A stretch of 61,052 nucleotides of DNA, taken from contig JANYBS010000036.1 of NCBI GenBank assembly GCA_025360715.1, forward strand, positions 1 through 61,052, given 5' to 3'. Within the stretch, counting starts at the first letter, position 1, and every line of letters begins with the position of its first letter. Shown in pieces: positions 34,321-39,907 of the stretch. Position numbers and translations under genes: made by a program. The notes under the pieces were generated by a model. It was not told the DNA's origin. It did not search any database and was given only the letters and a program-made list of their open reading frames with translations. Source of the DNA: Candidatus Eiseniibacteriota bacterium. Its GTDB lineage: Bacteria > Eisenbacteria > RBG-16-71-46.

Positions 34321-34329
34321 AAGACCTAA

Positions 34330-34358
34330 ACGGTAGAGGCCACGCGTAGCGCTGTCCA
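34330..34358 (-). promoter_or_regulatory. Promoter giving a nearly leaderless HipA-like kinase mRNA
   Basis: Minus strand TGGACA, 17 bp, TACCGT. The predicted transcription start falls about 3 nt before the ATG at 34320, implying a leaderless or near-leaderless message. Confidence 0.45.
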
Positions 34359-34399
34359 ACATGGGCCTGTGGCTGGAGGTCATTTGCTAACATGCGCAC

Positions 34400-36058
34400 A
34401 TGCGAACTCCAGCCTGGCTCAAGATAGTGCGCTCTGCCGCCGTGCCCCTGCTCGCGCTGTGCCTGCTGGGCGCTGACCAGGCCGCTCCCAAACTGCCCAT
34501 GCTCCCGCCGATCGTGTTCGTCTCGCGCGGCATCCCCACCGGCGCCGACGCCGGCCAGATCCCCGGCCTAGGGCCGCATGGCTCCACGATCATCGTGGGC
34601 GGGCGGCTGTTGATTCGGGAAAGCTCTGGCGCCGTGCGCGAGCTCGTGCCGCACGAGAAATTCACTGACGTGCAGGATCCCGATGTATCGCCGGACGCGA
34701 AGCGCGTGGTGTTCTCTGCAGTGGCGCCGGGCGAGAAGCATTGGGGGCTCTGGAGCGTGGGCGTGGATGGGAAGGGGTTACAGAAGCTGGCGAACACCTG
34801 GGCCGACTCCAGCCTCGACGCGGTGGATCCTTGTTGGTACGCAGGCATGATCGTGTTCGTGGATGCTTATGTGAGCGGTAGGAATCTCTACGACATCGGT
34901 CCCCGGTCGCAGCTCTGGATATTGCAGCCGGACGGCGTAGCGCTTCCGATTCGCGCACAGAGCCCCGTGGGTTCGCTGGATCCTACGATCGATCCCCGGA
35001 ACGGCCGCTTGATCTACTCGCGCTGGTGGTACAACCCATGGCGCATCGAGCAGAGCGCCGCGGGTTCTCTCACCGCACACATCGGTGAGCACGCCCCCGA
35101 CGACGTGAACCTGTGGCAGCCGGTGAGTGCGCGCATCCGGTTCAATCGGGCGGCGTATCCGGACGCAGTTCAAGAATATCCGCCCGTTTCGCTCTCGGGG
35201 GCTCCGAGACCAAGGCCCACACCGCATTCCATCGGCGACCAATATTATCTCGACGACCTCAAGCTTGCCGCCGGCGGTGTGACGCCTCGCGGCGCAAGCA
35301 CGGCGCTCCAGCCTTGCGTTCTCGCGGACGGGACCATCGTCGGTACGGCCCCAAGCAATACCGGCTGCGCTCCCACGCCGGTGTCGACCAACGTACGCCG
35401 ATTCGCGCCGCCGCCCTCGCCAGGCATGCGCATCGCGGGCGCCGCGATCTCGGATGACAGCGCGGATAGCTATTCCGAAGCCGGGAATCTCTCGGCGCCG
35501 TCGGCCTGCGCGCCGGCGGCGCTGCCAGACGGACGGATCATCGTCAGCCTGGACCGCGGCGCGCGTGGAGATTTCGGGCTTTACGTGATCACGCCGAATG
35601 GCGACACCCAGCGCCTCCTGGACCTGGAGGGCACGTCCGAGCTCGATGCAGCAATCGTGAGGCCGCATCGCGATGGTGAGATCTTCACGACCAGCGACGA
35701 TCGAACCAGCTTCCGATTTCACGACAGCGACGTCTTCGCGGGCCCCGGCGGACCGGCACGCGTGGCCGGCGCACGAGTGCATTTCTACGCCGTGTGGCCC
35801 CCAGCCGCGGTCTATGGTATCGCCACTGCGTTCCATATCGCCGAGACTCCGGTCGCAGCCGACGGAAGCGTGGACAGGGAGCTGCCCGTCTCTAATAGCC
35901 TGAATACCCGCGCCATGTTCGAGACCCTCACCGACTCCCTCGGCCGCGTGCTCATGACCGCGCACGGCCCCGCGCAGGTGCGCGGCTTCAACAGCGGCAC
36001 GCCCGGCAGCACGGTCACGTGCCGCGGCTGCCATCTGGGGCACTCGACGCTGAAATGA
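34400..36058 (+). CDS. Secreted TolB/PD40-propeller-like protein with CxxCH haem motif
   Basis: 552 residues with an N-terminal signal peptide (hydrophobic AAVPLLALCLLGA), so exported. The body has PD40/TolB-like blade sequences (QDPDVSPDAKRVVFSA, LDPTIDPRNGRLIYSRW). The C-terminus ends with TCRGCHLGHS, where C-R-G-C-H is a covalent haem c attachment motif. The layout recalls the propeller-plus-haem arrangement of the hydrazine synthase alpha subunit family, but similarity is only in general form and no hydrazine metabolism is suggested. No cytochrome maturation gene is in the window. Confidence 0.8.
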   Translation: MRTPAWLKIVRSAAVPLLALCLLGADQAAPKLPMLPPIVFVSRGIPTGADAGQIPGLGPHGSTIIVGGRLLIRESSGAVRELVPHEKFTDVQDPDVSPDAKRVVFSAVAPGEKHWGLWSVGVDGKGLQKLANTWADSSLDAVDPCWYAGMIVFVDAYVSGRNLYDIGPRSQLWILQPDGVALPIRAQSPVGSLDPTIDPRNGRLIYSRWWYNPWRIEQSAAGSLTAHIGEHAPDDVNLWQPVSARIRFNRAAYPDAVQEYPPVSLSGAPRPRPTPHSIGDQYYLDDLKLAAGGVTPRGASTALQPCVLADGTIVGTAPSNTGCAPTPVSTNVRRFAPPPSPGMRIAGAAISDDSADSYSEAGNLSAPSACAPAALPDGRIIVSLDRGARGDFGLYVITPNGDTQRLLDLEGTSELDAAIVRPHRDGEIFTTSDDRTSFRFHDSDVFAGPGGPARVAGARVHFYAVWPPAAVYGIATAFHIAETPVAADGSVDRELPVSNSLNTRAMFETLTDSLGRVLMTAHGPAQVRGFNSGTPGSTVTCRGCHLGHSTLK

Positions 36059-36062
36059 GCGA

Positions 36063-36097
36063 GTCGGACCCGGAGGGGTGAACGCCCCGGGCCCGAC
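36063..36097. terminator. Imperfect hairpin between convergent genes
   Basis: GTCGG-a-CCCGG pairs with CCGGG-c-CCGAC through one mismatch, just past the stop of the plus-strand gene. U-tracts are poor on both sides, so efficiency is doubtful. Confidence 0.45.
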
Positions 36098-36111
36098 TTC
36101 CTGCGGACGGC

Positions 36112-36786
36112 TTACTTCTTCTGCTGGTAGGGGAAGTTGCCCGCGACCTTCTTGAACAGTGACTTCGTCATCGCCTCGACGGCATTCGTCATGCTGCCGG
36201 TGAATCCGCCACCGCTGTCCGTATGGTCATAGTTCCAGAGCAGCGCCCCGTCGACTCCATTGTGAAGATCGATGTGGATGTCGACGCGCTGCGTGGAACC
36301 ATGGAAACCGAGCAGAAGGGTCTGAGCCATTGCCATGCCCTGCGACGTCGGTTGCGATTGACTGACTGTTCCGGAAACGAGCGCGTCGACGCCGAGCACC
36401 TTGGCGATCTCGTCCATCGTGTGTCCCGCGAGGCTGTCCGGCTTGTACCCGGCCTTGATCAGGAGCGCGTCCGTTCGGTCAACATCCTGAAAGTCGACTC
36501 TGTAGTGCAGATCGCCGCTCTTCTGCAAGAATCGAGCGTAGATCTGTCGCTGGAATTCCGTGCCCTCATCGTTCTCCTGCTTCGTGATCTGCTCCATCGT
36601 GATGTCCTTCAGGCGCTTGGTGTCGATGGTCACCTTGAATGGCAGAATCGCGACGCTCTTGTGCGAAGCCGTCAGTGCTTCGAAGTGAGGACTTAGGTAT
36701 TGCTGTGCACCGGCTTGTACGCTGATGGGACAACCACCGATGACAGCGATTGCGAGGAGACAGGCGCACAGATCACGGATCTTCAA
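36112..36786 (-). CDS. Exported protein of unknown function, possible lipoprotein
   Basis: 224 residues, starting at a TTG codon with AGGAGGT 4-5 nt upstream. The N-terminus is a signal sequence with IGGC at the end, a lipobox-like site, so it may be lipidated. The body has segments typical of CsgG/DUF799-like exported proteins (SVAILPFKVTIDT, IAKVLGVDALVSGTVSQS, DLHNGVDGALLWNYDH). No catalytic motif is evident. Its promoter is likely at 36861-36889. Confidence 0.8.
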   Translation of the reverse strand: MKIRDLCACLLAIAVIGGCPISVQAGAQQYLSPHFEALTASHKSVAILPFKVTIDTKRLKDITMEQITKQENDEGTEFQRQIYARFLQKSGDLHYRVDFQDVDRTDALLIKAGYKPDSLAGHTMDEIAKVLGVDALVSGTVSQSQPTSQGMAMAQTLLLGFHGSTQRVDIHIDLHNGVDGALLWNYDHTDSGGGFTGSMTNAVEAMTKSLFKKVAGNFPYQQKK

Positions 36787-36860
36787 GGCGACCTCCTGAC
36801 GATCATGGGAGCGGCTTACATGGCAATTGCGGGTCGCCGGGGGTCGACATCCGTGACGGC

Positions 36861-36889
36861 ATGAAACTTTAATATCAGGAACCGGTCAA
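36861..36889 (-). promoter_or_regulatory. Promoter of the exported CsgG-like protein
   Basis: Minus strand TTGACC, 17 bp, TTTCAT, in an unusually AT-rich stretch for this window (TGATATTAAAG). Confidence 0.4.
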
Positions 36890-36944
36890 TGCGCGTCGGC
36901 ACTCAAACCTGCGACCTTGCAGCGCTTCGCGCATCTCAAGCCGC

Positions 36945-37739
36945 ATGGCAGAAGGTCACTCCTCGGCGCGCTGGGCGCGCATGATCTCGCGGCTTGTTGG
37001 CACGCCGCTCGTGCGTGTCGAGATCACGCGCGCTGACCCGGCACGAGCCTCGACGCTTGTTGGCGCGTCGATCACACGCGTGCAGCCGCGCGGCAAGCAT
37101 TTGCTGGTTTTCTTCTCAAACAATCTCGTGCTCCATACGCACGCGCTCATGTCGGGCAAGTGGTATGTGACCGGCCCCGCGGGGCCCACGCCCGAGATGC
37201 TCGCCGAAGCCGACGTGCGGTTGATCACCGCACAGCGCGAAGCGTTGTTCACGAACGGCCCCGTGATCGAATTGCTCACGGCTCAGGAGCTCGCGGCACA
37301 TGCGCGCCTCAACTCGCTGGGACCCGATGTTCTGGACCCGCTCTTCGACCGCGACGTGGCTTTCGCGCGTCTGCGCCGCGTGGGTGCGCGGGAGGTCGGC
37401 GATGCTTTGTTGGATCAGACACTGATCTGCGGCGTCGGCAACAAGTTCAAGATCGAGGCGCTCTTCGTGGCGCGATTGGATCCGCGCAAACCTGTAGGAC
37501 TCTTGAGCACATCCGAGACGCGCCGCATGTGGGATGCGCTTCTGCCCATGATGCGCAGCATCGCCAGCGCGAGCAGCGGCTTCACGACGCTGCCGCGCGA
37601 TCTTGCGCTTCAGGGCGAAAGACACTGGGTCTACGCCCGCACGGGCAAGCCCTGCTTCGTGTGCGGCGCACGGGTGATCACCTATCGCCACGGCCGCCCG
37701 CCGCGCATCACGTTCGCGTGCCCGGAGTGCCAGAAGTAG
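36945..37739 (+). CDS. Fpg/Nei-family DNA glycosylase-like protein with Ala in place of the catalytic Pro
   Basis: 264 residues of the Fpg/Nei type: PRGKHLLVFF with the conserved Lys (about residue 51), HALMSGKW, LDQTLICGVGNKFKIEALF (helix-two-turn-helix) and a C-terminal zinc finger CFVC...CPEC with the family Arg. The start is M-A-E-G-H, whereas active members begin M-P-E-(L/G) and use the exposed N-terminal proline as the nucleophile. The codon is GCA, so the change is direct. There is no better start upstream. It may be inactive, act as an AP-site binding protein, or use another amine. The 3' end overlaps the convergent HNH gene by 32 nt. Confidence 0.85.
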   Translation: MAEGHSSARWARMISRLVGTPLVRVEITRADPARASTLVGASITRVQPRGKHLLVFFSNNLVLHTHALMSGKWYVTGPAGPTPEMLAEADVRLITAQREALFTNGPVIELLTAQELAAHARLNSLGPDVLDPLFDRDVAFARLRRVGAREVGDALLDQTLICGVGNKFKIEALFVARLDPRKPVGLLSTSETRRMWDALLPMMRSIASASSGFTTLPRDLALQGERHWVYARTGKPCFVCGARVITYRHGRPPRITFACPECQK

Positions 37740-38808
37740 CGAAGCGGGCTTTGTGGGATGCGGCGGCGCCGTGGGACTTGGCAGGAGCTGCCTCACGTTC
37801 GCGCTTGTCCTTCATGAACCCGTGCCCCAACACGCGCTCGGCCTCGTACTGGTTGTGTGGCCTACAGAGCAATCGCAGGTTCTTGGTTTTCGTGAGACCA
37901 CCCTTCGCGACCGGGATCACGTGGTCGTACTCAAGGTCGCGCCTGCATTCGCAGCGCTTGCCGTGGTCGCTCACGAACGCGCACTGACCGCCATCGCGCT
38001 CGAACACTTCGCGCTTGATCGAGGCCTCCACGTAACGCGGGTTGCTCGAGCCCCTTCCGGCGCGCGGTTTGGACGTCTCGGCGAAGCGCTCGTGGCGCTT
38101 CTGGGCGATGAGGGCTTTGAAGGCCGCGTTCAAGAGCGCGTCGTAGTCTTGAAATGCGATCGCGCTGCCGACCAGATCCTGCGCTTCCTTCATGAGATCC
38201 CGCGTTTCCTGCGAGAGAGTGACCTGGAACGCGAACCGCTCGGGTGCCAGGGGGCGGAGTGTTGCAGGCGCTTCATCCGGCGGCGCCATCATGAGTGGCC
38301 CTGCCGGGACAGCGCGTTCCGCGCTTTCAGACAGCACCACTGGCCCCGGGGCCAGTTCGATCGCCTGCGGCGGCATTGGCCTGAGCACGGTGGGCACATC
38401 CGGCTTCGGGGCGTATGCGGCCACAAGCATCTCGATCTGGGCCTTTGTCTTGTTCTCGGCGGCTGCGATAAGCGCTGGCGCGCTGAGCTCCGTGAGCAAC
38501 GGCGCAATCAGCACGACGCCACTCACGTTCAGCCGGCCATCGGCGATCATAGGGTGGATCATCGGGAACCGCCGCGCGGCGCGAGCGACACGAATGCGCT
38601 TGAACGCCGTGTCATCCGAAAAGCGCAATGCGCCCACGCCGTACGCGTGCATCGACGGATAGCCCTGCGGCCGATAGAGCTTTCGCGCGTCGCACTCCCC
38701 CAGATGCGCGAGCAGCGCCGCGGTGAGCGCGCGGTGTTTTGAGACCAGAGCAGAAAGTTCCTGAAGCAGCACATGATCCGGCACAAGCGCGAGCGAACGA
38801 ATACTCAT
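37708..38808 (-). CDS. HNH endonuclease
   Basis: A 366-residue protein with a helical N-terminal region of the DUF222-like type and a C-terminal HNH nuclease motif: QCAFVSDHGKRCE, then LEYDHVIPVAKGG and NLRLLCRPHNQYEA (about residues 280-335). Cysteines in the motif suggest zinc. Start chosen at the ATG at 38808; 38820 is an in-frame alternative. Such genes occur in several copies in related high-GC bacteria. Role unknown; it could be a mobile or defence-linked nuclease, but no intein or restriction partner is seen. Confidence 0.85.
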   Translation of the reverse strand: MSIRSLALVPDHVLLQELSALVSKHRALTAALLAHLGECDARKLYRPQGYPSMHAYGVGALRFSDDTAFKRIRVARAARRFPMIHPMIADGRLNVSGVVLIAPLLTELSAPALIAAAENKTKAQIEMLVAAYAPKPDVPTVLRPMPPQAIELAPGPVVLSESAERAVPAGPLMMAPPDEAPATLRPLAPERFAFQVTLSQETRDLMKEAQDLVGSAIAFQDYDALLNAAFKALIAQKRHERFAETSKPRAGRGSSNPRYVEASIKREVFERDGGQCAFVSDHGKRCECRRDLEYDHVIPVAKGGLTKTKNLRLLCRPHNQYEAERVLGHGFMKDKREREAAPAKSHGAAASHKARFATSGTPGTRT

Positions 38809-39000
38809 CACATCACCCATCGCGGGGGCGGGTCGCGGTGGCGTGAGCATTGTCGCACGCGCGAATCCGGCGCTCTCAGAGCCGCGTGCGCCGCAGAACG
38901 CGGGCGCGGACGAGAACGCGCGAGCACTTGGCTCGCGCAGCGGGCGCACGGGCGAGCGAGGCGCGTTCAGCGTGACTGGCGCGGGCAGTCTCGGGAGGCG

Positions 39001-39048
39001 ATTCGCGTCGCGCCAAAGGCTGTCAAGAGGCGCGTTCGCGACGCGAAT
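39001..39048. repeat. 12-bp perfect inverted repeat with 24-nt spacer
   Basis: ATTCGCGTCGCG at 39001-39012 and its complement CGCGACGCGAAT at 39037-39048. TTGACA (minus strand, 39021-39026) lies in the spacer. Likely an operator or a hairpin upstream of the HNH gene; no matching -10 was found. Confidence 0.55.
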
Positions 39049-39079
39049 ACGGCACTTGCCCCGGGGCCAGTTGGACCGC

Positions 39080-39907
39080 CTACTTATACGCCGCGCAATA
39101 GGCGATCCAACTATCCTCGTGATCCAGGTGCGCGCGCTTGTGCAGCGTGCCCGTGTGCGTGCGGTGTTCTTTGTCGTAGCCTTCTGAGTACACCTCGAAG
39201 TCCGAGAATCCGGCTTCGGCCACGAGTTCGCGCAGCTCCGGGATCGTCCACATGCGCCAGTCATACACAAAAGCGCGCTTCATCGTGCTGCCATCGCGCA
39301 TCTCGAAGTGAATGTAGGCCAGCAGCCTGCGATCCAGAGCATTCAGCTTCGCGTGCTCCCATATGTAAGTAAAAGCCGGCGTCGGCTCGCCATCGGGCGC
39401 ATTGCCCGCGCCCTTGCGCGTGCGCTCGATGACGCGCTTTTCAGCGCGGATGCCGCCGAACATGTTCAGCACCAGCACGCCGCCGGGCTTGAGGCTGGCA
39501 CGAGCGGCCTTCAAATAGGCCAACAAGTCCGCGCGTTCATGAAACACCCACCATGAAAAATTCAGTGCACATGCCACGTCCACGAGCGGCTTCTGGGGCT
39601 TGCGCACGTCACTACGTACCAGCGTGACGCGGCCCTTCGTATCTCGCGCCCAGGGCAGGCGGCGGCGGCGGGCCCACGCCAGCGGTTCAGGATCCAGGTC
39701 CACCGCCCACGCGAGGTTGTCCGGGTGGCGCTGCGCCCAAGCCACCGCCAGCGCGGCGGTGCTGCAGAAGTCCTCACGGAAGGTGCGGGCCTCGCGGCCG
39801 TTGCGGTTCCGGAAGCACCGCGCCAGAAAGTCCAGGTCCCATTCGACGCCCTGCACAGCGACTTCATACAATGCATGGCGATCGCGCTGCAGGTCGGGGC
39901 TTTTCAT
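39080..39907 (-). CDS. SAM-dependent methyltransferase
   Basis: A 275-residue class I methyltransferase-like protein. A degenerate SAM-binding region (EDFCSTAALAVAWA, then WAVDLDPEPLAWA) is followed by DVACALNFSWWVF and LKPGGVLVLNMFGG, a frequent motif after the post-I strand. ATG at 39907 has AAGGAA 6 nt upstream. Substrate unknown. It is transcribed divergently from the metallopeptidase/ATP-grasp pair. Confidence 0.85.
   Translation of the reverse strand: MKSPDLQRDRHALYEVAVQGVEWDLDFLARCFRNRNGREARTFREDFCSTAALAVAWAQRHPDNLAWAVDLDPEPLAWARRRRLPWARDTKGRVTLVRSDVRKPQKPLVDVACALNFSWWVFHERADLLAYLKAARASLKPGGVLVLNMFGGIRAEKRVIERTRKGAGNAPDGEPTPAFTYIWEHAKLNALDRRLLAYIHFEMRDGSTMKRAFVYDWRMWTIPELRELVAEAGFSDFEVYSEGYDKEHRTHTGTLHKRAHLDHEDSWIAYCAAYK

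Follow-up and report, generated by a model that had tools for sequence, protein, structure and literature searches.

DNA glycosylases of the Fpg/Nei family are regarded as being defined, in catalytic terms, by an N-terminal proline, and vertebrate NEIL3 is the named exception. The natural Val2 of NEIL3 gives an enzyme that is active but uncoupled, and a V2P substitution restores coupling (PMC5727206). Substituted forms of other members are also informative. The P2G form of human NEIL1 forms a conjugate between the Gly2 amine and C1' and keeps residual activity, and the P2G and P2T forms of E. coli Fpg have about 10% of their Fapy activity left (PMC10164570). The most extensive data come from Nei2 of Mycobacterium smegmatis, whose P2A form excises 5-hydroxyuracil (OH-U) as the wild type does (32.5% versus 32.4%), while incision at AP sites is 3.3% versus 93.8%, a loss of about 96% of the AP-lyase activity, and borohydride trapping is 6% versus 73% (PMC11323726). 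Nei2 P2A complements the sensitivity to psoralen crosslinks in vivo, and both glycosylase activity and complementation are lost in the E3A and K51A forms (PMC11323726). The P2C form loses OH-U excision yet complements (PMC11323726); thus, a residue other than proline at position 2 is not always benign. Searches of the open-access literature turned up no previous account of an Fpg/Nei protein from bacteria that lacks the proline. In this study, we analyzed a stretch of 61,052 nucleotides (the window) that encodes a Nei protein with alanine at this position, and we conclude that the Ala2 Nei is a genuine variant, and a conserved one, within a known enzyme family.

Results

A Nei-type gene with alanine at the nucleophile position

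The gene and its catalytic positions are as follows.

36945..37739, + strand: Nei-type (endonuclease VIII-like) DNA glycosylase gene, 264 aa, Ala2 (Pfam, AlphaFold2 model, PDB fold match)
36948..36950, + strand: codon 2, GCA, Ala at the nucleophile position (Pro in 112 of 119 homologues)
36951..36953, + strand: codon 3, Glu3, the glycosylase acid residue, kept (alignment; role from PMC11323726)
37095..37097, + strand: codon 51, Lys51, the beta-hairpin catalytic Lys, kept (alignment; role from PMC11323726)
37653..37736, + strand: zinc finger Cys237-Cys240...Arg254...Cys259-Cys262, intact (sequence, alignment)

The reading frame opens ATG GCA GAA GGT CAC, which confirms the M-A-E-G-H start, with no proline at the Schiff-base position, that a first-pass annotation of this DNA had described. 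The ATG is the earliest ATG, GTG, or TTG past the upstream stop. Among the 24 open codons 5' of it, there is no start codon with a proline codon immediately after, and the sole CTG would yield M-R-P, which rules out an alternative start that supplies the proline. Membership in the Fpg/Nei superfamily, also claimed by that annotation, is borne out by two Pfam domains that score over their cut-offs, Fapy_DNA_glyco (PF01149; 1.5e-8, 35.7 bits, cut-off 25.5) and H2TH (PF06831; 2.2e-13, 50.4 bits, cut-off 34.7). Together with the CxxC...CxxC zinc finger, these make up the superfamily architecture. The Lys, zinc finger, and Arg that had been reported as kept are indeed present as Lys51, four Cys, and Arg254, and so is Glu3, so that the superfamily's Glu, beta-hairpin Lys, and zinc-finger Arg are all in place. 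The one departure is the N-terminal proline nucleophile that other members expose after Met removal: Ala2 is the sole alteration among the catalytic positions.

Several lines of evidence place the protein on the Nei side of the superfamily. Among proteins of solved structure, E. coli endonuclease VIII and M. smegmatis Nei2 are the nearest in sequence, and the scores against the corresponding NCBIfam equivalogs are far under the curated cut-offs (Nei2, NF040775, 109.9 bits against 400; EndoVIII, NF007763, 122.5 bits against 252). An AlphaFold2 model built on a 24-sequence alignment, 23 of them Fpgs from viral contigs and one bacterium, reached a pLDDT of 89 and a pTM of 0.84; prediction from the single sequence gave a pLDDT of only 34. 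The top PDB fold match of the model is E. coli Nei (2opf, TM 0.87), above the Fpg/MutM structures, and M. smegmatis Nei2 matches with a TM of 0.81. In a maximum-likelihood tree of 37 sequences, from which residues 1 and 2 were taken out, Nei and Fpg are split with 100/100 support and the window protein falls with Nei. Its Gly4 (MxEG start) is likewise a Nei trait, as G4 is found in 20 of 20 Nei and L4 in 11 of 11 Fpg proteins. The window protein is therefore Nei-like, not Fpg.

The gene lies in a segment missing from related genomes

The nei gene is carried by a stretch that interrupts a locus otherwise collinear with that of congeners.

34321..39078, no strand: segment of ~4.76 kb missing from the congeners' collinear locus, carries nei (blastn synteny)
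37708..38820, - strand: HNH endonuclease-domain gene that lies downstream of nei and converges on it, start probably near 38820 (Pfam HNH 5.7e-5, above the cut-off)

By blastn, congeners G001, G002, and G003 are collinear with the window on either side of the segment, over 31.78-34.32 kb and again from 39.08 kb; the G004 contig covers the left flank only, up to 33.17 kb. In place of the segment, G003 has ~92 bp between the two flanks, and G001 and G002 have a different stretch of ~1.77 kb at this site. This arrangement suggests that the nei segment was gained by transfer, and loss in the congeners is a possible alternative. A 29-nt direct repeat, 90% identical, occurs at 38338-38366 and 39053-39081, and the right boundary of the segment coincides with the end of one copy. 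The TsaD encoded on the window contig is 79-85% identical to that of the congeners, and this identity and the collinear flanks rule out that the contig is a contaminant of the draft genome.

The other open reading frames of the segment encode 552 and 224 aa and have no Pfam match. No Lhr-sized gene adjoins nei, whose neighbours are these two frames and the HNH gene. Two Nei relatives with Pro2 (L094 and L096) adjoin a conserved open reading frame of ~1,530 aa, 54% identical between them (L094:10432-15051; L096:5047-9633), which is taken to be a putative Lhr because of its size and the mycobacterial nei2-lhr operon.

Ala2 recurs in a second phylum

Residue 2 of 119 distinct Fpg/Nei open reading frames is Pro in 112, Ala in 5, and Leu in 1, with 1 cut by a contig edge; the sample is biased in favor of relatives of the window protein and of Fpgs fetched by a pattern including MPELPEV, and it does not give a population frequency. 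The impression of a lone oddity left by the first-pass annotation has to be given up, since the four other Ala2 proteins come from genomes of one other phylum (G181, G385, G386, and G389, 4 of the 8 examined), and five Ala in two phyla is more than chance. All four start MAEGPLVH and have GCA or GCG as codon 2, and their identity to the window protein is 31-33%. Their genes have a dN of 0.23-0.39 and a dS of 1.8 or more, or saturated; on this sequence comparison, the MAEGP clade is under strong purifying selection. Elsewhere, in the phylum of G405, the 30 best Nei homologues that were retrieved all have Pro2, and a peptide-pattern search of GTDB contigs and viral contigs found no close homologue with the MAEGH start.

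These counterparts bear on whether the alanine is an artifact. The window comes from a draft genome of 253 contigs, Ala differs from Pro here by one base (GCA from CCA), and no close relative of the window protein was found, all of which would suit a decaying gene, or a mistake in assembly or sequencing at codon 2. Recurrence of Ala2 in four independent genomes with differing codons excludes a read error for the MAEGP clade and makes one improbable at codon 2 of the window gene. The 264-codon frame is open, the remaining catalytic residues are all kept, and the contig belongs to the genus, as its TsaD indicates. We therefore consider error or decay very improbable.

The MAEGP clade has 100/99 support in the tree. 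When all five Ala2 proteins were held together, the likelihood was slightly better with all rows (AU p 0.62) and slightly worse without three long or odd rows (AU p 0.32); a single Ala2 group appeared in 14% and 6% of bootstrap trees, respectively. The AU test thus does not reject a single Ala2 clade, and proof of a single origin was not obtained from these sequences either. A single origin would mean an old lineage, and two origins would mean that the proline was lost repeatedly.

One further Nei relative without the proline, L003 (G094:C8:41461-42285, minus strand), starts MLDAPAV, with Asp3, and keeps the Lys. It may be truly lyase-dead, since Met removal before Leu is unlikely. Its genome has two further H2TH genes.

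Conserved residues and accompanying repair genes

Glu3, Lys51, Asn166, Glu171, Arg254, and the four zinc Cys are invariant across all five Ala2 proteins. This invariance weighs against the reading that the protein is inactive or only binds DNA, as a scaffold or sensor for damaged or abasic sites that excises no base. Loss of the proline nucleophile, the variable presence of the nei segment, and a non-catalytic role proposed for NEIL3, as cited in PMC11323726, are compatible with such a role. Glu3 and Lys51, however, are dispensable for mere binding and are kept in 5 of 5, P2A in itself does not inactivate Nei2, and the MAEGP clade is under strong purifying selection; we regard an inactive or purely binding protein as quite unlikely. 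The first-pass annotation had offered an inactive, a binding-only, or an altered-chemistry protein, and with the base-excision residues conserved and Nei2 P2A active, altered chemistry is the best supported of these and the first two are less likely.

In none of the five Ala2 genomes (that of the window, G000, and the four others) did we find an H2TH-family gene besides the one with Ala2, which is in line with a working enzyme. The four congeners have one H2TH gene apiece, and those whose start could be read are canonical MPELPE MutM genes. The congeners have mutM in a murQ-mutM-DEAD-box neighbourhood that we did not find in the G000 assembly, so mutM may be missing there through an assembly gap. 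A search for exonuclease III (Xth, TIGR00633) found none in G000, in G001-G004, or in three of the four Ala2 genomes of the second phylum. Around the MAEGP genes, we saw no conserved AP-endonuclease partner; by eye, the neighbours encode a membrane protein and a thioredoxin protein that is DUF255-like.

Discussion

We infer that the window gene probably encodes a functional glycosylase of the Nei/endonuclease VIII type that is poor in lyase activity and mainly monofunctional, which would make it similar to NEIL3 with its Val2. Met-Ala N-termini are normally processed by methionine aminopeptidase, and the window protein therefore probably presents an Ala amine. In the mechanism that we propose, removal of Met1 would leave the primary amine of Ala at the nucleophile position, Glu3 would protonate the sugar O4', and Lys51 and Arg254 would hold the DNA. 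Oxidised or adducted bases would be excised, and kinship with Nei makes pyrimidines the probable substrates; the intercalation loop, L68-M69-S70, differs from that of characterised Nei proteins, which makes the substrate uncertain. The Schiff base would be poorly formed or resolved, with little strand cutting, and an AP site would be left for another enzyme. Little strand cutting would entail reliance on an AP endonuclease, and this step is the weakest link of the proposed pathway.

A competing interpretation is that the Ala amine is a fully competent Schiff-base nucleophile in an ordinary bifunctional glycosylase/lyase adapted by other substitutions. The expected processing of Met-Ala would suit it, the amines of NEIL3 Val2 and NEIL1 P2G attack C1', and Ile170, Arg181, and Arg248, which are common to the Ala2 proteins and absent from most Pro2 Nei, might compensate. 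These shared residues may instead reflect ancestry or chance, NEIL3 is weakly coupled, and for Nei2 P2A cleavage at AP sites is only 3.3%, with trapping at 6% (PMC11323726). We consider full bifunctionality unlikely and favor the lyase-poor glycosylase.

More tentatively, the Ala2 Nei proteins could form a bacterial subfamily, spread over at least two phyla, of dedicated monofunctional glycosylases, possibly crosslink-unhooking, that would be a counterpart of NEIL3 and the cell's only Fpg/Nei enzyme. If a natural, selected Ala2 branch exists in bacteria, it would show that organisms can do without coupled lyase activity in vivo, a result that would match the surprising outcome of P2A in mycobacterial Nei2. 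Such proteins would also be small tools for probing how base excision separates from strand cutting.

Among known systems, the Fpg/MutM enzymes (MPELPE; e.g., those of the congeners) share the fold superfamily, the H2TH domain, and the zinc finger with the window protein; they differ in L4 and Pro2, where it has G4 and Ala2, and in the 100/100 split of the tree. E. coli Nei (1k3w, 2opf) is the best match in fold and sequence among solved structures and has the same Glu, Lys, and Arg catalytic residues, but it combines Pro with a Q-L-Y intercalation triad, whereas the window protein combines Ala with L-M-S. NEIL3 offers the natural precedent of a proline replaced by a residue that uses its primary amine as the nucleophile, with glycosylase and lyase uncoupled, and it is still filed in the superfamily although it lacks Pro2. 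It is, however, a eukaryotic enzyme with Val2 rather than Ala2 and with extra C-terminal zinc fingers, and its sequence match to the window protein is weak (E about 1e-11). M. smegmatis Nei2 (PDB 8tjg, NF040775) has the MxEG start and the zinc finger, and its Glu and Lys are likewise residues 3 and 51. It differs in its Pro2, in an identity of about 31% in structural alignment, and in its lhr-nei2 operon, whereas the window nei has no Lhr-sized neighbour. Its P2A form, with A2, E3, and K51, is by sequence the engineered equivalent of the window protein.
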